From positions 1-64,000 of the forward strand of contig NZ_JNKO01000010.1 in assembly GCF_000702885.1 (NCBI RefSeq): 64,000 nt of DNA, written 5' to 3'. Below are positions 4,942 through 18,575 of this stretch, piece by piece. The position numbers were made by a program, and so were the translations under genes. Source of the stretch: Oribacterium sp. P6A1. Lineage in GTDB: Bacteria > Bacillota > Clostridia > Lachnospirales > Lachnospiraceae. Position 1 is the first letter of the stretch. Every line of letters starts with the position of its first letter. The notes under the pieces are model-generated. The model made no database searches. It saw only the letters and a list, made by a program, of their open reading frames with translations, and was not told where the DNA came from.

Positions 4942-5083
4942 CACCCTAAATGAGCGAGAAAGCCCACGGTTTTAACCGTGGGATGAGAGCATATTAAACC
5001 AAAGATGATATTTTCAGCCAAAATACTGAAGATATCATCATTTTTATTTGACTCATGTGTATATTAAATGCTATATTATACAC

Positions 5084-5485
5084 ATGAAGAATGAGTATAA
5101 ACATACAAGAACTACTGTATCATTGATAAACTATCATCTTGTGTTCTGCCCAAGATACCGTAGGAAGATTTTTAATATTCCCGGTGTCGAAGATCGATTC
5201 AAAGAACTGACTTCCATTGAATGCCAGACGCACAATATAGATATACTTGCCATGGAATGTCATATAGACCACGTCCACATGTTTGTGAGTGTATATCCTC
5301 AACAAAGTATCCCTGATATTGTAAAACAAATCAAAGGCGCTACATCACATAAGCTGCGTGAAGAATTCTCGCAGCTAAGAAATATGCCGTCTTTATGGAC
5401 ACGTTCATATTTTGTCAGCACAGCAGGTAATGTCAGCTCTGAAACTATAGAATGGTATATCAATACACAAAAAACGAGGGATTAG
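5084..5485 (+). CDS. tnpA: IS200/IS605 Y1 transposase TnpA
   Basis: 133 residues from the ATG at 5084, which gives the normal family start (MKNEYKHTRTTVSLINYHLV); the frame extended to 5048 adds residues not typical of the family. The HUH motif is H63-V64-H65 (in HIDHVHMF) and the catalytic tyrosine is Y125 in IEWYINTQ. As a dimer it cuts and joins single-stranded ends by recognising the hairpins at 4963-4982 and 7237-7256. Its stop TAG is immediately followed by the tnpB ATG (TAGATG), so the two are translationally coupled. Confidence 0.92.
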   Translation: MKNEYKHTRTTVSLINYHLVFCPRYRRKIFNIPGVEDRFKELTSIECQTHNIDILAMECHIDHVHMFVSVYPQQSIPDIVKQIKGATSHKLREEFSQLRNMPSLWTRSYFVSTAGNVSSETIEWYINTQKTRD

Positions 5486-7048
5486 ATGCACGTACTTAGA
5501 CTGAGTCTTGCGACAACCGAATATGATGAACAGGTACTTGCAGACCGCTATTTTATGATATCCCATATCCATAACGTCGTAGTCAAGCATGCAAAGGAAC
5601 TGCTCAGACAGCTTGACTACAACAGGGAGTATCAGGCCTCAAAGGATGAATATACGACACTTCTCAAGGAAAAGAAGGCTGCTGATAGCAGCCACTCCAG
5701 ATTCCCAAAAGAGAAATCTAATCGGATGAAGGAGCTTTCTGGTGTCATGTACAGCATTCGGCAGGAAATCGGGTTTTGCAAGGCAAGTCTTGAGTCCTAC
5801 ATCAAGATCTGTGGCAGGAAGTACAAAAAGCATATCTCTTCACAGCAGGTGCAGAAGGAAGCTGATCGTGTATGGGCCGGTGTGGAGAAGGTATTGTTCG
5901 GTAACGGAGAAGAGCTTCATTTCAAGAAATACCGGGACTTTGATACCATCTGTGGCAAGTCTGCGACTAACGGGATCAAGTTCGACAAGGAATCGTTCAG
6001 TATCGAGTGGAACGGACTACATATAAGGTGCAGGCTCCCTCGTAAACACAAGGATGTTGAAGCAGGAATGCCATACATCATGGAATCTATCGATCATAAG
6101 GTTTCCTACTGTGAGATAAAAAGACGAATGTTTCCCAATGGCTGGCACTACTATCTGAACGTATATCTTGAAGGGGATGCTCCGAGAAAACTAAAGACAG
6201 TTGGCGATGCAGATAATCGGACAGGGCTTGACCTCGGAACATCGACAGCCGCTACAGTATCGGACAACATGGCGACATTGGAAGAGCTTGCTCCGAAATG
6301 TTATGAGTTCAACAGGAAGATACGTAACGTGTCAAGACGCATGGATCGGTCAAAACGTGCTTATAACCCCAATAAATACAAGCCTGACGGTACCATCGAC
6401 AGAACGAATAAGGATAAGTGGGTGTTCTCAAAGACCTATCTCAAATCTCGTGACAAGCTCAAATCATTGTACCGGCAAAAATCCGAATATATTGACCAGT
6501 CACACAGACAGTACATCAACAGACTGATAACTGACTCGGTAAACTTCATCACGGAAAATATGAACTTTAGTGCCCTTCAAAAGCGTTCGAAGAAGAAGAC
6601 CGAGCGTTCGGACAAGGTCTCTGTTGTGGCAAAGAAGGACGGTACTGAACAATCCATCCGTAAGTTCAAAAGGAAGAAACGTTATGGTTCATCCATGAAC
6701 AACCGCTCACCATCAAGATTCCTTATACTGCTGGAACAAAAGGTAAAGTTATATGGTGGTGCATTGTATAAGGTGGACACATGGAACTTCAGAGCGAGCC
6801 AGTACGACCACACAACGGACACAAACACCAAAGTCAATATTAGCGACAGGTTTAAATCGATAGACGGACATGAGGTACAGAGGGACTTATATAGCGGGTT
6901 CCTGTTAAAGAACAGCAATGGAAATCTGAATCACACTGACAGAGAGAAATGTATATATGAATTCGACAGCTTCATTAAGTTGCACGATGAGTTGATAAGT
7001 AATAAGAAGGCTGATGGTAAGAGCATGAAGGCGTGCTTCGGTTTTTGA
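5486..7048 (+). CDS. tnpB: TnpB RNA-guided nuclease, lacking the usual zinc finger
   Basis: 520 residues, longer than the roughly 400 of classical TnpB. The RuvC-like catalytic residues can be placed: D249 in TGLDLGTS, E357 in FITENMNF and D467 in VQRDLYSGFL. The region between E357 and D467, where canonical TnpB has a CxxC...CxxC zinc finger after a TSQ motif, instead reads FRASQYDHTTDTNTKV with no cysteine. The protein therefore belongs to a derived TnpB branch. TnpB proteins cut DNA guided by an RNA from the element's right end and help the element persist. The basic segment KRSKKKTERSDK and KFKRKKRYG may contact RNA. Confidence 0.85.
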   Translation: MHVLRLSLATTEYDEQVLADRYFMISHIHNVVVKHAKELLRQLDYNREYQASKDEYTTLLKEKKAADSSHSRFPKEKSNRMKELSGVMYSIRQEIGFCKASLESYIKICGRKYKKHISSQQVQKEADRVWAGVEKVLFGNGEELHFKKYRDFDTICGKSATNGIKFDKESFSIEWNGLHIRCRLPRKHKDVEAGMPYIMESIDHKVSYCEIKRRMFPNGWHYYLNVYLEGDAPRKLKTVGDADNRTGLDLGTSTAATVSDNMATLEELAPKCYEFNRKIRNVSRRMDRSKRAYNPNKYKPDGTIDRTNKDKWVFSKTYLKSRDKLKSLYRQKSEYIDQSHRQYINRLITDSVNFITENMNFSALQKRSKKKTERSDKVSVVAKKDGTEQSIRKFKRKKRYGSSMNNRSPSRFLILLEQKVKLYGGALYKVDTWNFRASQYDHTTDTNTKVNISDRFKSIDGHEVQRDLYSGFLLKNSNGNLNHTDREKCIYEFDSFIKLHDELISNKKADGKSMKACFGF

Positions 7049-7822: not shown

Positions 7823-9694
7823 TCATTCAAGAATCCTGATTCTTCCATCACCGTAAGGATCAGAGTACTCACCTCCGACTGCTCCTCCCAGCTTCTCTGT
7901 TATGTACTCTATAAGAACCTGATTATCAAGCTTAAATCTGTCTTCTATGACCTTATCCCCATCAAACATGGTGAAGCCGTCTCCCTTATCCTGTATGGTG
8001 TAGTCATGACATGCCAGAGTATACGTTGCCTTGGGATCGATAGGTTTATCTCCTACAAGAACATTCTGAACTCTTCGCTCTCCCTTTATCCCGACAAACA
8101 TGGAATGATCATCAGCAATGCAGGGTGAATCAATCTTAGTGTTTACTTCATAGGACAGTCCGGACACCTGAAGAAATCCGCCGCACTCATCTGGAATAGA
8201 ACGGGCTCCCCATTCCAGTGCATCCAGTATCTGCTGTCCGGTTACTTCTATCATTGACACCATATTGCCATAAGGAAATACATCAATGATATTTCCGTAA
8301 GTGATGTCGCCTTTCTCGATATTAGCCCTTATACATCCTCCGTTAGCGATGGCAATGTCCGCGCCGGAAGACCATCTGTAGGCATCAGCACAGAAATCAC
8401 CGAGATTTGTCTCTGCACGTCTCACCATACGTATGGGATTTCCATTGTTATCTGTTTCCTTAGGATCATTAACTGTCAGCTCAACATCTGTTTTTGCCAC
8501 AACTTCATTCATCTTTTCGCCAAGCTCAGCTTTGACTTCCTGCACCATATCACCGATCTCGTTGTTTATTCCCAAAAGCGCAGGTGCGGAATCTTTATTA
8601 GGCCAACTCCATACATCAGTCTTTAGTACCTTTTTATCAGCGGAAATATGGCTGTAGCCTATACAGTTAAGCTTAGTTCCAACGGCAGATCTCGTAACCT
8701 CTTTTCCGCTCTTATCTTTCATGACTATCTGCTCTGTATCATGACTGTGACCATCTAAAAAGACATCTATGCCCTCAGTATGTTCAATTATATCCTTATA
8801 GGTCCACGGACTGTAGGTATCATAAAGTCCCATATGTCCGATCACATAAACAAGATCCGCTCCTTCTTTTCTGACATCATCCACCGCCTTTTGTACAGCT
8901 TCGTAAACCTTTTGCCCGGTGTCATCCTGAAGGAATCCGTATATATAATTCCCCTTGTCATCCTGGAAATATTTCGGAGTGGAAGTTGTTATGGATGTTG
9001 GTGTGGTGACTCCCACAAAACCGATTTTCATGCCTGCTATTTCCTTGATGGCGTAGGGTTCAAACACCAGCTTATCATTTTTCGTGAAATTGCAGCAGAT
9101 GTATTTATACTCCGCTTCATTTTCAGCAAGCTCAAGAAAATTATCCATTCCGTAATCAAATTCATGATTCCCTGGTATTGCAAGATCATAATTCAGTTTA
9201 TTCATGATCCTGACTATATTCTCACCCTTTGTAAGGGTTCCAACAGCTTCACCCTGAATGGCATCTCCGTCATCCACTAGAATAGTCTCATAGCCTTCAG
9301 ATTCAAGCTTATCTCTGATGGCAGCGAGTCCGGCATAACCGAAGCCTTCATCGATTCCACAGTGCACATCACTGGTAAAGAGAATATATACTTCACCGTT
9401 CTTGTCGATTTTTTCCTCTGTTGCACTATTCTCTACTGAAGTCTTTGTTGAAGCATCAACCTTTGTCTCTTTGGCATCAGCCTCCTCTTTGCTTTCCTTT
9501 TCTTCAGCAATAGATTTCGGCGCCTCTGTTTCTGTTTCCACTTCGGATATCTCGGTTTTATCTGCCTGAGACGGTGCCAATGCCGGCTCGATGTCCGTAA
9601 CACCGCATCCCGCTGCAGTTCCCACCACCAAAATCGAAATACATCCCGCCAAAATACTCCTTAGTTTTCCTGATAACAAATGATACTTTTTCAC
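7823..9694 (-). CDS. Lipoprotein 5'-nucleotidase / UDP-sugar hydrolase family enzyme
   Basis: 623 residues. The N terminus is a lipoprotein signal with lipobox TAAGC (Cys about residue 30), then a Glu/Lys/Thr-rich linker of about 65 residues. The metallophosphoesterase domain follows with FTSDVHCG, VDDGDAIQGE, IPGNHEFDYG, IGHMG and LDGHSHD, all the expected metal and substrate ligands. The second half is the 5'-nucleotidase C-terminal domain (IANGGCIRANI, then VFPYGNMV). The enzyme hydrolyses extracellular nucleotides (5'-NMP, UDP-sugars or cyclic 2',3'-NMP) for nucleoside and phosphate scavenging at the cell surface. It has its own ribosome site and is separated from the SDR gene by a terminator-like hairpin. 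Confidence 0.88.
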   Translation of the reverse strand: MKKYHLLSGKLRSILAGCISILVVGTAAGCGVTDIEPALAPSQADKTEISEVETETEAPKSIAEEKESKEEADAKETKVDASTKTSVENSATEEKIDKNGEVYILFTSDVHCGIDEGFGYAGLAAIRDKLESEGYETILVDDGDAIQGEAVGTLTKGENIVRIMNKLNYDLAIPGNHEFDYGMDNFLELAENEAEYKYICCNFTKNDKLVFEPYAIKEIAGMKIGFVGVTTPTSITTSTPKYFQDDKGNYIYGFLQDDTGQKVYEAVQKAVDDVRKEGADLVYVIGHMGLYDTYSPWTYKDIIEHTEGIDVFLDGHSHDTEQIVMKDKSGKEVTRSAVGTKLNCIGYSHISADKKVLKTDVWSWPNKDSAPALLGINNEIGDMVQEVKAELGEKMNEVVAKTDVELTVNDPKETDNNGNPIRMVRRAETNLGDFCADAYRWSSGADIAIANGGCIRANIEKGDITYGNIIDVFPYGNMVSMIEVTGQQILDALEWGARSIPDECGGFLQVSGLSYEVNTKIDSPCIADDHSMFVGIKGERRVQNVLVGDKPIDPKATYTLACHDYTIQDKGDGFTMFDGDKVIEDRFKLDNQVLIEYITEKLGGAVGGEYSDPYGDGRIRILE

Positions 9695-10738: not shown

Positions 10739-11908
10739 TTATGAGTATGAGATTTTTCCTGCCTCATCAAAGGCATGTCTCAGATCTTCTATAAGATCAT
10801 CAACGTTTTCGATTCCAATCGACAGACGTAATGTGGTTTCATGGATACCGTTTTTCTCAAGAATCTCTGCCGGTACATCTGCGTGGGTCTGGGTTACAGG
10901 ATATGTGACAAGGGATTCCGTGCCCCCCAGACTTTCTGCGAAGAGGATGATGTTAAGGTTTTCCAGAACCTTAATCGCAAATTCCTTTGATGGTACATCA
11001 AAAGTTATCATTGCACCGAAGCCCCTTGACTGTTCCTTCATGATGTCATGTCCGGGATGATCCTTTAATCCCGGATAAAGTACACGGGTCACATGATGAT
11101 TGCTCATAAGAAAATCTGCGATCCTATGAGCGTTTTCCTCTGCTCTGTCCATTCTTACCGCAAGGGTTTTGATACCTCTTATGATAAGCCATGAATCAAA
11201 AGGAGAAAGACCTGCACCCGTGCTTTTGAAAAGAAATCTGAGACGCCCGGAAAGTGTCTGATCCTTCACAACTATGAAACCTGCAATGGCGTCATGGTGT
11301 CCTGCCAGGAATTTGGTGCCGCTGTGAATCACTATGTCAGCGCCAAGATCAAGTGGATTCTGAAGATATGGAGACATGAATGTATTGTCAACGATAAGGA
11401 GGATACCGTGACTCTTTGTTATCTCGGAAAGCTTTCGGAGATCTGTTACATTCATCATTGGATTGGTGGGAGTTTCAAGATAGATTGCCTTTGTATTATC
11501 CTTTATCAGATTTTCAACATCTTCTTCATGCAGAGCTGCTGAACTAAATGTAACTCCGTTCTTCTGATTTATCTCCCGGAAAAGTCTTATGCTTCCGCCG
11601 TAGAGATCTTCATCTATCAGCACATGATCGCCGGGTTTAAACAACTCCATCACGCACCCTATGGCACTTATGCCGCTTGCCAATGCTATACAATCCGTTC
11701 CATGCTCAAGCCCTGCAACTATTCTTTCAAGATGGTCTCTCGTAGGATTCTGTAATCTGGAATAGTCATATCCTGAACTCTCTCCAAAACCTTTATGAGC
11801 AAAGGTAGAAGACATATAAATCGGATAGCTCACAGCACCGAAATGTTCATTTATATCATCATTCTGTAAGTGTTGACATCGGGTTTCTAAACTGTACTCC
11901 ATAATCAT
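10739..11908 (-). CDS. Cys/Met metabolism PLP enzyme (cystathionine gamma-synthase / beta-lyase type)
   Basis: 389 residues of the Cys/Met-metabolism PLP family. Landmarks are YDYSRLQNPTRDHLE (phosphate contact), ALASGISAIG, LYGGSIRLF (stacking Tyr), ETPTNPMMN, VDNTFMSP and the PLP lysine in IHSGTKFLAGHHD, ending with ESLGGTESLVTYPVTQTHAD and RLSIGIE. The family splits or forms C-S bonds of cystathionine, homocysteine or cysteine, and sequence alone does not separate synthase from lyase. It follows the MalY/PatB gene by 13 bases and probably feeds sulfur from imported cystine into methionine, or releases it as sulfide. Confidence 0.87.
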   Translation of the reverse strand: MIMEYSLETRCQHLQNDDINEHFGAVSYPIYMSSTFAHKGFGESSGYDYSRLQNPTRDHLERIVAGLEHGTDCIALASGISAIGCVMELFKPGDHVLIDEDLYGGSIRLFREINQKNGVTFSSAALHEEDVENLIKDNTKAIYLETPTNPMMNVTDLRKLSEITKSHGILLIVDNTFMSPYLQNPLDLGADIVIHSGTKFLAGHHDAIAGFIVVKDQTLSGRLRFLFKSTGAGLSPFDSWLIIRGIKTLAVRMDRAEENAHRIADFLMSNHHVTRVLYPGLKDHPGHDIMKEQSRGFGAMITFDVPSKEFAIKVLENLNIILFAESLGGTESLVTYPVTQTHADVPAEILEKNGIHETTLRLSIGIENVDDLIEDLRHAFDEAGKISYS

Positions 11909-11921
11909 CTGTCCTCCTGAT

Positions 11922-13154
11922 TTAGCCTACATTCAATAAACTGTTATCCAGTGAAACTTTGTATGCATCTATTGCATCTTTTAATTGTAAAAATGCCTGT
12001 TCCAGTGTTTTCCTTGGGCACGCTATATTAAACCTTTCAAACTGCGCTGTCTCAGGACCGAAGATTCCCCCCGGATCCAGCCAGAGATGTGCTTTATCAA
12101 CTATCAGATCTTCAAGTTCATCATCGGTTAATCCGAGACCTGAAAAATCGATCCATAAAAGATAGGTGCCTTCCGGCTCTATGAGTCTTATTTCAGGCAA
12201 ATATTTCTGTATAAAATCCCTCACGAAATCCACATTCTCTTTAAGATACTGAAGCAGCTCCTGATGCCATTTTTCGCCCTTTGTATATACTGATTCCAAT
12301 GCTTTGATACCTATGATATTGGCCTGACTGTATCCTTTAGCAGCATTGGCTTTCTGATATTTTAACCGAAGCTTTCTGTCGGGAATTATGGCATTGGCTA
12401 TTTGTAGACCTGCGATATTAAAGGTTTTAGTCGGTGAATGAAGAACCAGTATATGGTCATGATATGCAGTCCCCAGTGTAAGCATTGAAGTAAACTCATA
12501 TCCCGGATATATAAAATCACAATGAATTTCATCGCTGACCAGAACTACATCATATTTCACACATAAAACGGCTAACTGAAGCAGCTCTTCTCTCCTCCAT
12601 ACACGCCCCACCGGATTGTGAGGATTACAGAGTATAAATAGTTTAAGTGCCGGATCTGACAGTTTCTCCTCAAGATCATCAAAATTCATTTCATAATGAC
12701 CATTTGATTCCTTTAATGGTGAATCCACAATTATCCGGCCATTATCTCTTATTACCTCTCCAAAGGGATAGTAGACAGGCTGCTGGATAAGAATCTTGTC
12801 TCCTGCTTCTGTAAAAGCCCTTACACAATTCGAAAGAGCATAAACTACACTGGGAGCCAATGTTACCCAGTTCCTGTTTACTGAATAACCGTAATGTTTT
12901 TCTGTCCATGAACCAAGCGCTTCGAAGTAGTTGTCCCTGGGATCAGTGTATCCGAAAATCCCATGATCTATTCGTTTTCTTAAATCCTCAAGAATCTCCT
13001 CCGGAAGACGAAAATCCATGTCGGCCACCCAAAGAGGCAGCAGATCCTCCCGACCTTTTCGTTCTCTTGCAAAATCATATTTCAGACAATTAGTGTTACG
13101 ACGATCTACGATGGTATCAAAATCATAAGTCCTTTTTATTTCTTTCTCAGCCAT
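11922..13154 (-). CDS. MalY/PatB-family PLP aminotransferase-like C-S lyase
   Basis: 410 residues of fold-type I PLP enzyme. The hallmark LLPLWVADMDF is near residue 38, followed by FGYTDP, the aspartate/phosphate region ILCNPHNPVGRVW, SDEIHCDF, and the PLP lysine in HSPTKTFNIAGLQIAN. Members (MalY, PatB, CBL) cleave cystathionine or other cysteine S-conjugates to thiol, pyruvate and ammonia. It lies between the ABC transporter ATPase and the second C-S lyase gene on the same strand, consistent with use of imported cystine or S-conjugates. Confidence 0.88.
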   Translation of the reverse strand: MAEKEIKRTYDFDTIVDRRNTNCLKYDFARERKGREDLLPLWVADMDFRLPEEILEDLRKRIDHGIFGYTDPRDNYFEALGSWTEKHYGYSVNRNWVTLAPSVVYALSNCVRAFTEAGDKILIQQPVYYPFGEVIRDNGRIIVDSPLKESNGHYEMNFDDLEEKLSDPALKLFILCNPHNPVGRVWRREELLQLAVLCVKYDVVLVSDEIHCDFIYPGYEFTSMLTLGTAYHDHILVLHSPTKTFNIAGLQIANAIIPDRKLRLKYQKANAAKGYSQANIIGIKALESVYTKGEKWHQELLQYLKENVDFVRDFIQKYLPEIRLIEPEGTYLLWIDFSGLGLTDDELEDLIVDKAHLWLDPGGIFGPETAQFERFNIACPRKTLEQAFLQLKDAIDAYKVSLDNSLLNVG

Positions 13155-13227: not shown

Positions 13228-14073
13228 TCAGCAAACACCCCAGTTATAGTTTTTCTTGACCGCCGGTTTGCCAAACACATGAGCCAGCAATGACTCATCC
13301 CTTTCAGGAAAATCCGAATCCTCATCAGCTCTGTAGTCTTCCTTGAGAATTCTCTTCAGGAACTGTGCGGTTCTTTCTTCTTTAGGATGTGTAAATATGT
13401 CTTCCGGTGTCCCCTCTTCCACAATCACACCCTTATCCATGAAGATGACCTTGCTTGCAACGTCTCTTGCAAAATCCATTTCATGAGTGACAACCACCAT
13501 GGTTGCACCGGACTCTGCCAGATCCTTCATAACATTGAGAACTTCACCTACAAGTTCGGGATCAAGAGCAGATGTAGGCTCATCAAAAAGGATCACATCG
13601 GGGTTGAGTGCAACTGCTCTGGCAATGCCTACACGTTGCTGCTGTCCTCCTGAAAGCTGTGAAGGATAGTAGTCATAGCGGTTCTTAAGTCCTACCCTGT
13701 CAAGTGCACTCTTCGCACGTTCCTCGGCTTCCTTCTTAGGTACTCCCCGGGCTATGGTAAGCCCCTCCATCACATTTTCAAGAGCAGTTTTGTTTGCGAA
13801 AAGATTGTAGTTCTGGAATACAAAACCCGATTTTTTTCTTATATCTCTGATGGTTTTCTGATTTGCCACACGAAAGTCTGTTTTTATATCATCAAACTCA
13901 ATGGACCCCTGATCAGCACGCTCAAGAAAATTTATGCAGCGGAGCATGGTGGTCTTTCCGGAACCTGAAGGACCAAGGACTACTATCACCTCGCCCTTGT
14001 TTACTTCAAGGTCAACCCCTTTAAGTATCTGATTGTTTCCGAAGGATTTATGAATATTTGTTATTTTCAGCAT
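13228..14073 (-). CDS. Amino-acid ABC transporter ATP-binding protein with a C-terminal extension
   Basis: 281 residues; the first 240 form a complete polar amino-acid ABC ATPase. Walker A is GPSGSGKTT, the Q-loop is FVFQNYNLF, the signature is LSGGQQQR, Walker B is [13 protein letters not shown], and the H-loop is VVVTHEMDF. The normal family end (TAQFLKRIL) is followed by about 40 extra acidic-then-basic residues ending NYNWGVC. It powers the two permeases encoded just upstream; substrate-wise the cluster fits cystine or another sulfur amino acid. Confidence 0.92.
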
Positions 14074-14112: not shown

Positions 14113-14895
14113 TTACACACCTCGCAATAATGTTGAAACCGCCGCTACACGACTTAATATGTAGCTAAATCTTCTGTCAGAGGGTTTCGTCAGCCTCTTC
14201 TTATAAACCGACAATGAGTTTTCTGCAAATCTGAAAAGAAGCTGTACCACTGTGCAAAGCAGTACATAGATCATGAGAATTACAAGATAAGCTTCGATGT
14301 AGTTATAGCCTATGGCTGCCTCTATCTTTGCCAGGGCGGTAATGTCTTTGACCGTCATCATATATGCAAGAGATGTATTCTTAAGAAGGCTCACAGTTGT
14401 GTTTCCTACATTCGGCAGTGCCGCCACAAGAGCCTGTGGAATGATGATTCTTGTATAGGCCTGAAATTTTGTTTCACCTATAGACATTGCGGCCTCAAGC
14501 TGTCCGGCGTTTACTGTAAGAAGCGCCGATCTGAAAACCTCAGAGAGAACCGCTATGGTGTTCAAAGAGAATACCGTATAGGCGTAAATGATGGGGTTCC
14601 AGGCGAAAACATTGTACTCAGTGTGAAGTACATTTTTGAAAATATAGTTCAGTGTCGTTGGCAAAAGGCTATAGAAAAAAAGTATCTGAAGAACTATGGG
14701 AGTTCCACGGACGAAGGACACATAAAGTCCGATTATCCTTGATGAAACCTTATGATCCACCAGCTTGCCAAGTGCCATAAAGAATGCCAGTGGAATTGAA
14801 ATGAGAAGTGTAACAAATGTCAGCTTCAGTGTTACGGGTATTCCCGAAAGAGCTACAAGGAAGGTCTCCCACATAAATCCTAATTCAATTTCCAT
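14113..14895 (-). CDS. Amino-acid ABC transporter permease (second)
   Basis: 260 residues of the His/Glu/Gln/Arg-type permease family, with about five membrane segments. FVRGTPIVLQILFFYSLLP is the N-terminal signature and EAAMSIGETKFQAYTRIIIP is the EAA loop that docks the ATPase. The gene starts 16 bases inside the previous permease gene (14880-14895 overlap), showing translational coupling. It probably forms a heterodimeric channel with its neighbour. Confidence 0.9.
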   Translation of the reverse strand: MEIELGFMWETFLVALSGIPVTLKLTFVTLLISIPLAFFMALGKLVDHKVSSRIIGLYVSFVRGTPIVLQILFFYSLLPTTLNYIFKNVLHTEYNVFAWNPIIYAYTVFSLNTIAVLSEVFRSALLTVNAGQLEAAMSIGETKFQAYTRIIIPQALVAALPNVGNTTVSLLKNTSLAYMMTVKDITALAKIEAAIGYNYIEAYLVILMIYVLLCTVVQLLFRFAENSLSVYKKRLTKPSDRRFSYILSRVAAVSTLLRGV

Positions 14896-15803
14896 GAGTT
14901 ATCCTCCTGAGTTCTCTGAAATCTGTTTTGGTCATTTTCTGTTTCACCGGGTTTTGAACCGGCAGACCTTGCTTTTCCCATAGATACATCAAAAAATCCA
15001 TTGCTTTGCTTTAGCTTATTAAGAATACCGGTTTCATATATCGGATATAGAATCTTTTCGGATACTGATTTTTCTTTTGATACTGATTTTTCTTTTGATA
15101 CTGCTTCTTCGTGTGGCCTCAGTCCCCTGAGAAGATGTTTCTCCAGTCTCTTCGATACTGCTTCAATAAGAAGTGTCAGTACCCAGTAGACTACGAACAT
15201 TGCTATATAGGTTTCCAATGCATAGGATCCGTGATTAAGACCTATGATGAGCTGCCCCTTTCCCATGATGTCTATGAGTCCTATGGTGTAGGCCAGGGTT
15301 CCTTCTTTCATGAGATTCACAAGAGCGTTTGTAAAATTCGGAAGTGCTACTGCTGAAGCCTGAGGAAGGATTATTCTTCTGAAGGTCTGCCAGCGGCTGA
15401 GTCCGATGCTGAGACCTGCTTCACTCTGCCCTGGATCTATAGCAAGATATGCGCTTCTGAAAACCTCTGACATGGATGCTCCGAACATAAATGTAAAGGT
15501 TGTTATAACAAAGACCGCTTTGTTTGCATTATTTATATTGATACCGAAGCTTAAAAGAAGTTCCGGAAGTCCATAATAAATGATGAAAAGCATTACTATG
15601 GAAGGTACACATCGGATAAAGTAAGTGTAGGCAGATGCCAGTCCCCGAAGGATTCTTCCGCCCTTTAACTTCCCTGCTGCAAGGAGGAGCCCCAGGAGCC
15701 CTCCGAAGAACACTGTACCCAGCATGATGCCTAGAGTCACAAGCGTATATGGAAGAATCTGGGGCAAAACTTCAAAAATGAAGGTAGGTTTAAATGGTCT
15801 CAC
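14880..15803 (-). CDS. Amino-acid ABC transporter permease (first), with a repeat-containing C-terminal tail
   Basis: 307 residues. Residues 1 to about 230 are a standard permease: YFIRCVPSIVMLFIIYYGLP and the EAA loop EAGLSIGLSRWQTFRRIILP. The remaining roughly 75 residues are not part of the usual domain. They contain the repeat SVSKEK twice, encoded by an 18-bp tandem repeat (15061-15096), then a hydrophilic tail. The start overlaps the stop of the substrate-binding protein gene by four bases (ATGA), so coupling is tight. Confidence 0.88.
   Translation of the reverse strand: MRPFKPTFIFEVLPQILPYTLVTLGIMLGTVFFGGLLGLLLAAGKLKGGRILRGLASAYTYFIRCVPSIVMLFIIYYGLPELLLSFGININNANKAVFVITTFTFMFGASMSEVFRSAYLAIDPGQSEAGLSIGLSRWQTFRRIILPQASAVALPNFTNALVNLMKEGTLAYTIGLIDIMGKGQLIIGLNHGSYALETYIAMFVVYWVLTLLIEAVSKRLEKHLLRGLRPHEEAVSKEKSVSKEKSVSEKILYPIYETGILNKLKQSNGFFDVSMGKARSAGSKPGETENDQNRFQRTQEDNSWKLN
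15061..15096. repeat. 18-bp tandem repeat, two full copies plus part of a third
   Basis: GATACTGATTTTTCTTTT occurs at 15061-15078 and 15079-15096, followed by GATACTG. It stays in frame in the permease gene (repeat unit SVSKEK), so copy-number changes would lengthen or shorten the tail without breaking the protein. Confidence 0.9.
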
Positions 15804-16738
15804 AGTGTATCACCTTTCTGATATCCTTCAGGTACATAGTCAAATAAGCTGTAACCGAAATACTGCTTCTGTAAGCTTTCGATGGTTCCGTCAGCCTTCA
15901 GTTCCTCAAAGGCCTTGTCGAAATCATCTGCAAACTGCTGCTCATCCTTGTTGAAGAGTGACCAGATAGGGATACCCTCATAAGGAACAAACGCAAGCTT
16001 GTCTGAGAAATCATGATACTCACCATCTTCCTTTTCTACATTTGCTTCAAAGGAAGTCTTAATGTTGAAGTAAGCATCATAGCGGCCTTCCAGTACCCAC
16101 TGATATGCGTCTGCCGCTTCGAAGGAATCACCTGCCACAAGGTCGATCTTTGCATCAGGGTGTTTTGAGTTGTAGTTCTCAACGATATTGTACTGAGCGT
16201 TTGCGGGTCCGATGGGAACCAGCTTTCCGGAGTACTTTGCAAAGGACTCAAGATCTGTTATTTCCGAAGCATTCTCCTTACGGATTGCGATACCGATGAT
16301 AGAAGCTCCTGTGTAGTTCTTAGGGAAAACGTACTTCTTTGAACGCTCTTCGGTCCACCATACGCCCTTGCTGCCGGCATTGTACTTGCCTGACTCTACA
16401 CCAACCAGAAGATCATCGTCTGTTGTTCCCACATACTCGAACTCATAGTTCTCGAGCTTTTCATCTATAGCCTTCCAGACCGCAACTTCATATCCGTCAT
16501 GATTTCCGTCCTTGTCAATGAAGTCGTAAGGAACATAAGACTGTGTATGAGCGATAACCTTCTTTATGACTCCGGAAGCATCAGATGAAGCGGAAGTGGC
16601 TTCTTCTGATGTTGCAGCTTCAGATGAAGCTGCAGCAGTTGTTGCATCAGGAGTTGATGAGCCGCAGGCTGCAAGGGATGCGGCGGTGATGGATACAAGT
16701 GAAACTGCTGCTACGATATTAATAAAATTCTTTTTCAT
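15800..16738 (-). CDS. Amino-acid (probably cystine-type) ABC transporter substrate-binding lipoprotein
   Basis: 312 residues from the ATG at 16738, preceded by GGGGAG at eight bases; the upstream frame extension has no ribosome site. The lipobox is LAAC (Cys 25), then an Ala/Ser/Thr-rich linker. The mature part is a family-3 solute-binding protein with PYDFIDKDGNHDGYEVAVWKA, DDLLVGVESGKYNAG, and a C terminus with GTIESLQKQYFGYSLF. It captures an amino acid outside the membrane for the permeases encoded next. The substrate is inferred from context: the C-S lyases and the cysteine-rich leader argue for cystine, a cysteine conjugate or methionine. Confidence 0.88.
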   Translation of the reverse strand: MKKNFINIVAAVSLVSITAASLAACGSSTPDATTAAASSEAATSEEATSASSDASGVIKKVIAHTQSYVPYDFIDKDGNHDGYEVAVWKAIDEKLENYEFEYVGTTDDDLLVGVESGKYNAGSKGVWWTEERSKKYVFPKNYTGASIIGIAIRKENASEITDLESFAKYSGKLVPIGPANAQYNIVENYNSKHPDAKIDLVAGDSFEAADAYQWVLEGRYDAYFNIKTSFEANVEKEDGEYHDFSDKLAFVPYEGIPIWSLFNKDEQQFADDFDKAFEELKADGTIESLQKQYFGYSLFDYVPEGYQKGDTL

Positions 16739-16761
16739 AATTTTTTCTCCCCTATACATAT

Positions 16762-16931: not shown

Positions 16932-18008
16932 TTATACGCTTGCCTTCAGATCCGGAAATCTATGTGAATCTCTTATGGTATTTACAATATGAACCTTTGG
17001 TGTGGCTTCTGCCGCTGCTTCTCTTACCCACTTGAGATGCTCTACGGATGTATCATTTGGCACTGTGCAGTCTGCTCCAACGATGACACCGGTTCTTCCT
17101 GCTTCTTCAATGATCCTGCGGGTCTCGTTCTGGATTTCTGCCTTGTTTCCTCTGTAGAGGATGCTGTCCTCTGTATTGAGGAAACCGCCGATAACTGTCT
17201 TTCTGCCGAAGAATCTTCTTCCCTCACGAAGTGAAAGGCTTTCTGTATTAACAGCCCAGTTAAATGCTGCTGCAGGATAGTCCTGGTATACACTTATGAA
17301 ATTTGTATTTCCTCTCCATCCGCAGATGTGAAGGATGTTTGTTTCACTGAGCTTATTGGCAGCTTCAAGAATTTTCTTTTCTGATGGAGTTACATACAGA
17401 CGATAAAGTGCATCAGGGATAAATCGATGTGTGTCTGTTACTGAAAGATATATTCCGTCGGCGGTTTCACTGTTTATGACTGTCGGAAGAAGTTCAATTA
17501 TGTTGTCTGCGATCTTATCCAAAACTTCTTCAACCGCTTCAGGATTTGCTTTGATAAAATGAAGAATCAGATCATTTGCCTCTTGATCACTTAAGTTATG
17601 TCCGGTGGCAAGTCCGTAACGGAGATGAGCAAGTGGTGCGAAAAGATTGTAGAAAAGGAAGGTATCATTGCCATAGATCTGTCTGTAGCCCTTTGCAAGT
17701 CTTTCCTGATCTGTGAACCATGGGTGAAAATTTGAAACCGGAGTAAATTTTGAAAGCTCCTCAGGTGTTTTTGCATCAATCGTTATTGGTAAATAGAAAT
17801 AACCGTCAGTCATGATTTTAACGAAATCAGGATCAAATTCATCCTTGAAGCGCTGTGCTCCTGACAGTATCTTGTTGAAATTCTCAGGATGCTCAACACC
17901 GCTTACAAATTCATCCTCCTCAAGATAATGATGCCAGAATCCTACAGGAATTCTCTCTACAGGTTCGTTGTTAAATGCCTTTGCTACCAGTTCTCTCTTT
18001 GTGCTCAT
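16932..18008 (-). CDS. URO-D-like corrinoid/thiol methyltransferase family protein
   Basis: 358 residues from the ATG at 18008 (AGGAGG seven to eight bases upstream). It belongs to the uroporphyrinogen decarboxylase superfamily but carries the zinc signature of its methyltransferase branch (MtaA/MtbA, methionine synthase-like): H227-x-C229 in ILHICG and C314 in GADCTVP. True heme-pathway HemE lacks this triad. The likely role is methyl transfer to or from a thiol. It is the first full gene after the cysteine-rich leader and terminator and precedes the sulfur amino-acid importer, so a role in methionine or S-methyl compound metabolism is inferred. Confidence 0.78.
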   Translation of the reverse strand: MSTKRELVAKAFNNEPVERIPVGFWHHYLEEDEFVSGVEHPENFNKILSGAQRFKDEFDPDFVKIMTDGYFYLPITIDAKTPEELSKFTPVSNFHPWFTDQERLAKGYRQIYGNDTFLFYNLFAPLAHLRYGLATGHNLSDQEANDLILHFIKANPEAVEEVLDKIADNIIELLPTVINSETADGIYLSVTDTHRFIPDALYRLYVTPSEKKILEAANKLSETNILHICGWRGNTNFISVYQDYPAAAFNWAVNTESLSLREGRRFFGRKTVIGGFLNTEDSILYRGNKAEIQNETRRIIEEAGRTGVIVGADCTVPNDTSVEHLKWVREAAAEATPKVHIVNTIRDSHRFPDLKASV

Positions 18009-18091: not shown

Positions 18092-18130
18092 ACAAAAAAA
18101 GGACCCGGATTTTTTGCCATCCGGATCCTT
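18092..18130 (-). terminator. Leader terminator (attenuator) of the sulfur amino-acid operon
   Basis: AAGGATCCGGAT (sense, 18130-18119) pairs with ATCCGGGTCCTT (18110-18099) and is followed by seven T (A18092-A18098). It lies between the leader ORF stop (18151) and the ATG of the first structural gene (18008), with no gene for it to end, the layout of transcription attenuation. Confidence 0.85.
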
Positions 18131-18150
18131 ACATGCAGACGAAAATCGAC

Positions 18151-18261
18151 TCAGCTTAGAATAGGGTATGGCAAATAAACTCTATGCATATACATACAGC
18201 ACATACAGCAGCATCCGTTAAGCATGGTATTCATTTTTGTATTCAGTGTGAATGTTGTCAT
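18151..18261 (-). CDS. Cys/Met-rich leader peptide (36 residues)
   Basis: ATG at 18261-18259, preceded by AGAAAGGAAAGG, opens a 36-codon frame ending TGA at 18151-18153. Its centre reads NGCCCMCCMYMHR: five Cys and three Met within ten codons, after a plain Thr/Asn-rich start (MTTFTLNTKMN). A terminator stem begins 21 bases beyond the stop. Leader peptides of this kind stall the ribosome when the charged tRNA they need is scarce and so let RNA polymerase pass the terminator. Here the sensed pool would be Cys-tRNA and possibly Met-tRNA, matching the sulfur amino-acid genes downstream. A metal-binding micro-protein is the main alternative. Confidence 0.72.
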   Translation of the reverse strand: MTTFTLNTKMNTMLNGCCCMCCMYMHRVYLPYPILS

Positions 18262-18398
18262 ATCTTTGCCTTTCCTTTCTTCATTTACCGGACTTGTTTA
18301 ACTTCCCGGTACTGATGATTTGTTCCGGCTGTTTTCAGCCTGAAACTATATTTATGAGTTCAAGTGTTTCTGATTTGTTCCTGAACTTCATGTACAAA

Positions 18399-18427
18399 AC
18401 TATAATCCGCAATACCCTACCTGTCCA
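18399..18427 (-). promoter_or_regulatory. Promoter of the sulfur amino-acid operon leader
   Basis: On the minus strand TGGACA (18427-18422), a 17-bp spacer and TATAGT (18404-18399) form a good vegetative promoter. Transcription would begin near 18392, giving about 130 bases of leader before the peptide ATG. That leader holds two copies of GGAACAAATCA and a GGCTG/CAGCC hairpin. Confidence 0.65.
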
Positions 18428-18529: not shown

Positions 18530-18575
18530 ACAAAGCGCTGACGAAACTTTATAAAGTTTCATCAACGCTTTTGTT
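18530..18575 (-). terminator. Terminator after the metallophosphoesterase gene
   Basis: A near-perfect stem (AAAGCG, TGA, GAAACTTT against AAAGTTTC, TCA, CGCTTT) lies beyond the stop at 18660. T-rich sequence flanks it on both strands, so it may work in both directions. Confidence 0.7.

Follow-up and report, generated by a model that had tools for sequence, protein, structure and literature searches.

The operon for a putative cystine-type importer and two enzymes of sulfur amino acid metabolism in the window (the whole 64,000-nucleotide stretch of Oribacterium sp. P6A1 DNA analysed here) is preceded by a short upstream open reading frame (uORF) rich in Cys and Met codons and, directly after it, by an intrinsic terminator. 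We propose that this leader attenuates transcription through the ribosome in response to the charging of Cys-tRNA, and probably of Met-tRNA as well, a reading to which we assign a probability of roughly 0.8. A first-pass annotation, made from the letters of the window, had suggested a cysteine-sensing attenuator at this site. Comparison with related loci now supports that interpretation through the recurrence of the arrangement, the constraint on its Cys codons and the placement of its terminator.

Layout of the leader region

Every element named in the first-pass annotation was confirmed, and all of them were found to lie on the minus strand, no strand having been given before. Along that strand the order is a dyad, a promoter, a 5' untranslated region, a Shine-Dalgarno sequence, the uORF, the terminator and a URO-D-like gene that starts at 18008. 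The uORF (18261-18151) has 36 codons, ends in a TGA stop at 18153-18151 and encodes the peptide MTTFTLNTKMNTMLNGCCCMCCMYMHRVYLPYPILS. Its Shine-Dalgarno sequence, AGGAAAGG, occupies 18276-18269, 7 nt ahead of the ATG at 18261. The regulatory codons, read from the sequence at 18213-18187, are Cys-Cys-Cys-Met-Cys-Cys-Met-Tyr-Met, giving the core CCCMCCMYM.

The intrinsic terminator (18130-18094) consists of a 12-bp stem at 18130-18099 (12 pairs, -19.6 kcal/mol) and seven T at 18100-18094, and it separates the uORF from the first gene, as had been claimed. The 302-nt leader folds more stably than 100 of 100 shuffles (z -4.2). An Rfam scan of the window returned no family at gathering score, and no riboswitch, T-box or S-box.

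Further upstream, a long inverted repeat was seen by eye at 18531-18573, between a phosphoesterase gene and the promoter; it is perhaps the terminator of the phosphoesterase gene. Elsewhere in the window, two adjacent ORFs of 145 and 520 aa (5048-7048) look like an IS200/IS605-type TnpA and TnpB pair, judged by eye from their translations.

The downstream operon

The first full gene past the terminator is URO-D-like, in agreement with the earlier description, and encodes a URO-D superfamily protein (16932-18008, minus strand; Pfam URO-D, 2.5e-21) that scores far under the cut-off of the NCBIfam methylcobamide:CoM methyltransferases. The remaining genes, also on the minus strand, encode a family-3 substrate-binding protein (15800-16759; Pfam SBP_bac_3), two ABC permeases (14880-15803, best NCBIfam name cystine permease, under cut-off; and 14113-14895, assigned by Pfam/NCBIfam comparison), an ABC ATPase (13228-14073; nearest NCBIfam name cystine TcyN, at 339 bits under a cut-off of 406), a PatB-family C-S lyase (11922-13154; NCBIfam TIGR04350 at 457 bits, cut-off 340) and a Cys/Met-metabolism PLP enzyme (10739-11908; Pfam PF01053, 8.8e-141). 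The last is of the cystathionine gamma-lyase/methionine gamma-lyase type, with the equivalog models under cut-off.

With its PatB C-S lyase and Cys/Met PLP enzyme, the operon would, by gene content, serve sulfur amino acids. No importer protein scored above the cut-off of an NCBIfam model that specifies a substrate; the only model passed was that of the generic permease domain, TIGR01726, and handling of cystine is a putative function taken from the best names below cut-off. In most related loci, and also in Selenomonas, Paenibacillus and Acidaminococcus, the URO-D gene accompanies the set of binding protein, permease and ATPase, which hints at a putative role for the URO-D protein in handling the imported compound.

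Recurrence at related operon heads

One genome per species was scanned with an alignment of nine binding proteins; 183 relatives were confirmed, and the loci of the best 80 of these 183 were analysed. Both strands of the 80 loci were searched for small ORFs of 8-76 codons with a Shine-Dalgarno sequence and at least four Cys in 10 residues. Such an ORF stood at the operon head in 24 of the 80 loci (best 80 of 183). Matches numbered 52 in total, with 24 (in 24 different loci) in the head zone, defined as the same-strand stretch that begins 1700 bp ahead of the binding-protein gene and ends 150 bp ahead of it, and 28 elsewhere. The resulting density is 0.21 per kb in the head zone versus 0.010 per kb-strand elsewhere, or 20 times as high, and the opposite strand of the head zone contained no Cys-rich ORF of this kind in the 80 loci. 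The leaders precede the URO-D gene or the binding-protein gene, whichever stands first; in L083, L085 and L087 both lyase genes lie upstream of the leader. The window leader and the 24 survey leaders (from the best 80 of 183) make up the 25-leader set used below.

A tree was built from 54 binding proteins, those of the window and of 53 of the 80 loci. Of the 42 rows in its Lachnospiraceae-type clade, 24 carry a leader (the window's row being one of them), 14 do not, and four belong to contigs that lack the upstream stretch, so that the leader is present in 24 of the 38 heads with upstream DNA. On the 54-row tree the leader label requires at least 13 changes, compared with a mean of 18.1 for shuffled labels, an equally low number being reached in 3 of 500 shuffles.

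The binding protein of L099, labelled as a Myxococcales MAG, sits at zero branch length beside that of L101, from Lachnospiraceae, and L099 is probably mis-binned; it was kept in the counts. In L103, a Spirochaetaceae MAG, a small ORF at 8641-8718 ends in MCLCCCLA and has a good Shine-Dalgarno sequence ahead of URO-D, with no terminator found. It may be a chance occurrence or a translational version of the leader, and it is counted in the 24 of 80 and in the 25 leaders but left out of the 24 of 38.

Alignment of the leaders from Lachnospiraceae, a check proposed at the outset, gave the expected picture: Cys codons, a uORF with a ribosome-binding site and a terminator recur at the same operon, and the other residues vary. 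Peptide identity to the first row of 17 aligned leaders was 23-59%, the low values consisting mostly of Cys and Met matches.

Codon composition and constraint

Read in frame, the 25 leaders contain 153 Cys and 129 Met among 967 codons after the start, compared with 79 Cys and 21 Met in one of the other two frames and 27 and 13 in the other. The leaders had been selected for Cys only, and the 28 Cys-rich ORFs outside the head zone served as controls. Met accounts for 13.3% of leader codons (129/967) versus 1.7% (16/930) in these controls, and is nearly as enriched in the leaders as Cys. Representative cores are MCMCCCTMSCF (L057), VCMCCCGMSCF (L058), MEMCMCCMCC (L078) and MCMDRMCCKNMCCRSMYCC (L131).

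Constraint was assessed in ten hand-chosen pairs of near relatives, with some rows reused. Cys codons were identical in 47 cases, synonymous in 12 and nonsynonymous in 3; the corresponding figures were 46, 0 and 6 for Met and 157, 20 and 93 for all other codons. The nonsynonymous share was 3/62 for Cys (Fisher 3.5e-7) and 6/52 for Met (Fisher 8.7e-4) versus 93/270 for the others, values to be read with the pairs not being independent. Judged from these counts, the constraint on Cys acts on the residue more than on the nucleotide.

These figures bear on which amino acids are sensed. The same attenuator might respond to cysteine only, with Met codons frequent for some other reason such as translation pacing or local sequence constraint. 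Cys runs are the densest feature of the leaders and Cys codons the best kept, the best names in the operon point to cystine and C-S lyases, and Cys is the amino acid read by comparable leaders already known, as far as the available text of PMC8632094 and PMC1262725 describes them. Against cysteine as the sole signal stand the excess of Met over the Cys-rich controls and the lower rate at which Met codons change. We hold a sensor of cysteine only to be quite possible, though we would sooner bet against it.

A different signal would be read if the nascent Cys/Met chain itself paused the ribosome, as in an arrest peptide or a redox- or metal-sensing leader, without regard to tRNA charging. The same anatomy would serve and the residue make-up is unusual, but the order within the core is loose (MCMCCC, MCCQEMCC, CCMCMCC), more in the manner of a codon counter than of a single arrest sequence, and we regard this alternative as unlikely.

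Terminator and alternative pairing

A terminator was scored where a hairpin at least as stable as -7 kcal/mol runs into a stretch of T. One lies within 125 nt past the uORF stop in 20 of the 25 leaders, versus 0.2 expected from dinucleotide shuffles; a search by this definition returned none in L071, L083, L085, L087 and L103.

The first-pass annotation had left the choice of antiterminator undecided. We now propose a candidate in which the tail of the uORF at 18175-18158 (UUUGCCAU-A-CC-CU-AUUCU, minus strand), 6-26 nt ahead of the last base of the stop codon, pairs with 18129-18113 (AGGAU-CC-GGAUGGCAAA, minus strand), a segment shared with the 5' arm of the terminator and part of its loop. 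The pairing is written as UUUGCCAU/AUGGCAAA, and the duplex in the window has an energy of -16.5 kcal/mol (shuffle p 0.028).

Duplex and folding tests covered 19 of the 25 leaders, L083, L085, L087, L090, L093 and L103 being left out. In RNA extending from 15 nt past the mid-cluster Cys codon to the terminator loop, the tail often pairs with the 5' arm of the terminator. The duplex p was below 0.1 in 10 of the 19 (combined p 5.7e-4 over 15 less redundant leaders) and above 0.1 in nine, with L067, L131 and L071 at 0.62-0.90. Between L078 and L081 one base differs jointly in the tail, the 5' arm and the 3' arm, and both pairings are preserved (by eye). In the window, GGCAAA (18270-18265) beside the Shine-Dalgarno sequence can also pair with UUUGCC of the uORF tail.

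The tail segment of the window lies where a ribosome at the stop codon would sit, and a ribosome stalled on the Cys codons would not extend as far as this segment. Over the 19 leaders, the best tail segment falls within 30 nt of the stop-codon end in 12 and further upstream in 7, and these seven include six of the ten leaders with p below 0.1 (L064, L070, L078, L081, L084 and L099). Segments this far upstream would stay exposed with a ribosome at the stop. Predicted geometry of this kind, with the segment covered by a ribosome at the stop, fits the window and not the whole 19-leader set.

Equilibrium folding produced a clear switch in 3 of the 19 leaders (L063, L086 and L064) and a shift in the wrong direction in L058 and L067. 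In the window the terminator pairing was nearly equal, at 0.74 with a stalled ribosome versus 0.77 with a ribosome at the stop. Because the equilibrium switch is clear in three of 19 leaders only, the attenuator model needs kinetic, co-transcriptional folding. Of the mutually exclusive stems for which a folding check had been suggested, the window thus has the above-chance duplex but no switch at equilibrium.

The terminator also bears on whether the ORF encodes a functional small Cys/Met-rich protein, for example a metal-binding one, that merely precedes the operon. Peptides rich in CxC and MxC resemble metal ligands, and Cys and Met are conserved as residues. However, peptide sequence is free to vary away from the Cys/Met core (among the other codons of close pairs, 34% are nonsynonymous), the terminator follows directly past the ORF in the 20 leaders counted above, and the ORF tail is able to pair with the 5' arm of that terminator, which makes such a protein very unlikely.

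Close relatives and natural absence of the unit

Within the genus, a comparison of 17 genomes (that of the window included) found another clear uORF in G310 only, with 79% identity (E 2.5e-13). The G310 operon keeps the same order from URO-D through the PLP enzyme at 89-99.6% protein identity. Its core, CCMCCMCM, lacks one of the Cys codons in the CCCMCCMYM of the window and has Cys where the window has Tyr. Over the stretch that starts at the Cys codons and ends with the terminator the two DNAs are nearly identical; past the terminator identity drops. Oribacterium sp. WCC10 (L054) has the same leader as G310, and the two were taken as one record.

In Oribacterium sp. KHPX15 (L055, 8198-8838) and an Oribacterium MAG (L056, 909-1549), about 320 bp carrying the uORF and the terminator are absent (by eye). 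The dyad, the promoter and the early transcript are kept and join directly to the ribosome-binding region of URO-D, and the operon is kept as well. Most simply, the absence would represent loss of a uORF-terminator unit. Retention of the terminator without the ORF, which would have told against the earlier interpretation, was not seen in these two loci, where both are missing. In a further MAG (L062, 8876-8916) a uORF of the type seen in L059 and L065 is represented by its first six codons, which join the start of URO-D in frame (by eye); both the Cys run and the terminator are gone. From these comparisons the uORF-terminator unit is modular. The in-frame fusion suggests that the start codon of the uORF is usable; an assembly fault in the L062 MAG is also possible.

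Promoter, overlapping dyad and further searches

The promoter, TGGACA-17 nt-TATAGT (18427-18399, minus strand), had been described as good. It does match the consensus at 10 of 12 positions, but the scan that yields it is at chance level, with 6 promoter-like sites versus 6.5 expected from shuffles. The sequence is kept in L023/G310, L055 and L056 (by eye), and the window promoter is credible mainly for that reason.

A dyad, CCTA-N9-TAGG (18432-18416, minus strand), overlaps the -35 region and is a candidate operator. Of 39 related operon heads, 24 have the pattern C[AC]TA-N9-TA[GT]G no more than 160 bp ahead of the uORF or first gene, versus an expectation of 0.53 for those 39 heads derived from the rest of the same loci; the dyad of the window itself falls just outside this distance and was not counted. 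The 24 include 9 of the 14 heads without a leader. The pattern resembles a LysR-type T-N11-A site. The promoter-proximal dyad is a probable operator, which would provide a second layer of control over the operon.

URO-D relatives were matched in 19 of 299 family genomes (that of the window included), the rest being 34-48% identical. A first filter on the short URO-D loci gave no convincing leader besides that of the window. Longer stretches around the binding-protein gene contained leaders in G385 and G110, and the other five of the seven genomes from other genera (G142, G293, G121, G143 and G045) had no Cys cluster upstream of the operon. A profile of 17 leaders recovered from the 299 family genomes, at E 0.01, the leader of the window only, itself a profile row; this profile is insensitive, as it missed the known G110 leader within the sample. 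The exact pattern TGYTGYTGYATGTGYTGYATG matched in 3 of 397 genomes, window's included, and the two other matches, which by eye look antisense to a prolyl-tRNA synthetase-like gene, were dropped. ATGTGYATGTGYTGY, searched in four genomes, matched the leader of G110 and one site in G310 that was taken for chance for want of a Shine-Dalgarno sequence; the TGYTGYNNNTGYTGY pattern was too noisy among the matches listed.

A chance ORF ahead of an ordinary constitutive terminator would accord with the promoter scan and with the 18 other genomes with URO-D relatives that gave no leader in the first filter, but one of those 18, G110, has a leader outside the short stretch first examined, and the comparative data (the same arrangement in 24 of the best 80 of 183 loci, conserved Cys codons and terminators in 20 of 25 leaders versus 0.2 expected) already contradict so improbable a reading.

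Proposed mechanism

In the attenuator that we favour, which would read Cys-tRNA and probably Met-tRNA, ample sulfur amino acids would allow the leading ribosome to cross the Cys/Met codons at 18213-18187 and reach the stop at 18153-18151. There it would hide a large part of the tail (18175-18158), the terminator stem at 18130-18099 would form, and transcription would end. Under shortage of Cys (or Met) it would instead stall on 18213-18187 and leave the tail free to capture the 5' arm of the terminator (18129-18113) before the 3' arm exists, and polymerase would continue into the importer/C-S lyase operon. In a leader that went untranslated, the UUUGCC-GGCAAA pairing near the Shine-Dalgarno sequence would favour termination. 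The sequences themselves show the parts, their recurrence at the same operon, the conserved Cys codons, the terminator placement and the alternative pairing, which exceeds chance over the set; uORF translation, ribosome stalling, co-transcriptional timing and the nature of the signal are inferred steps of this model.

A broader version of the proposal is more tentative. The leader may represent an element present across a large part of the Lachnospiraceae in which a Cys- and Met-reading uORF acts as a sensor of total sulfur amino acids laid over a protein operator, in place of the T-box and S-box of other Clostridia; we rate this at slightly under even odds.

Comparison with known systems

In Proteobacteria, leader-peptide attenuators are a classical means of controlling amino acid genes. 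The leader proposed here would work as those attenuators do; what is new is its mixed Cys/Met make-up and its host group. Among the titles and abstracts of open-licence papers listed, none dealt with a Cys/Met leader from Lachnospiraceae.

The uORFC-8-2 motif stands upstream of cysS in Rhodobacterales, and attenuation by scarce Cys-tRNA has been proposed for it (PMC8632094, available text). As in the window, a uORF with tandem Cys codons is followed by an intrinsic terminator. It differs in having two Cys codons near positions 14-15, in its alphaproteobacterial hosts and in its target, a cysteinyl-tRNA synthetase gene, and the available text of PMC8632094 does not mention the Met enrichment seen in the Lachnospiraceae leaders. 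The leader of the window is not upstream of cysS, the first gene at such leaders being URO-D-like or that of the binding protein, and its gene position sets it apart from uORFC-8-2.

In Actinobacteria, leader peptides with Cys runs have been described at the cys operons of Mycobacterium and P. acnes and at cbs of B. longum (PMC1262725). These too are short ORFs with runs of Cys codons ahead of sulfur genes, but the portion of that source available to us reports no conserved terminator hairpins and suggests Rho. Polycysteine leaderless ORFs of mycobacteria belong to the same background (Canestrari 2020, as cited in the available text of PMC13236596).

Among Clostridia, Cys T-box and S-box elements control sulfur genes in Clostridium perfringens, according to the available text of PMC2940859. 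The likeness is that premature transcription termination governs Cys/Met genes; the difference, as described there, is that the RNA senses tRNA or SAM directly, with no uORF. An Rfam search of 16 related loci without a leader found no T-box or S-box, and only tRNA, rRNA and one purine riboswitch off the operon head.

The available text of PMC2965389, a 2010 survey, describes His leader peptides of hisS and hisZ in bacilli as a 'regular' leader in Firmicutes in place of a T-box, and states that no such leaders were known earlier outside Proteobacteria and Actinobacteria, ermC aside. These differ from the leader of the window in their His codons, their occurrence in Bacilli and their tRNA-synthetase-like genes (PMC2965389, same text). 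To these systems the present analysis adds 25 related leaders, nearly all from Lachnospiraceae, a major gut and rumen group, together with natural examples without the unit. The leader would tie an uncharacterised URO-D/ABC/C-S lyase operon to limitation for sulfur amino acids, and a combined readout of Cys and Met, if true, would give switches of this type a new kind of input.
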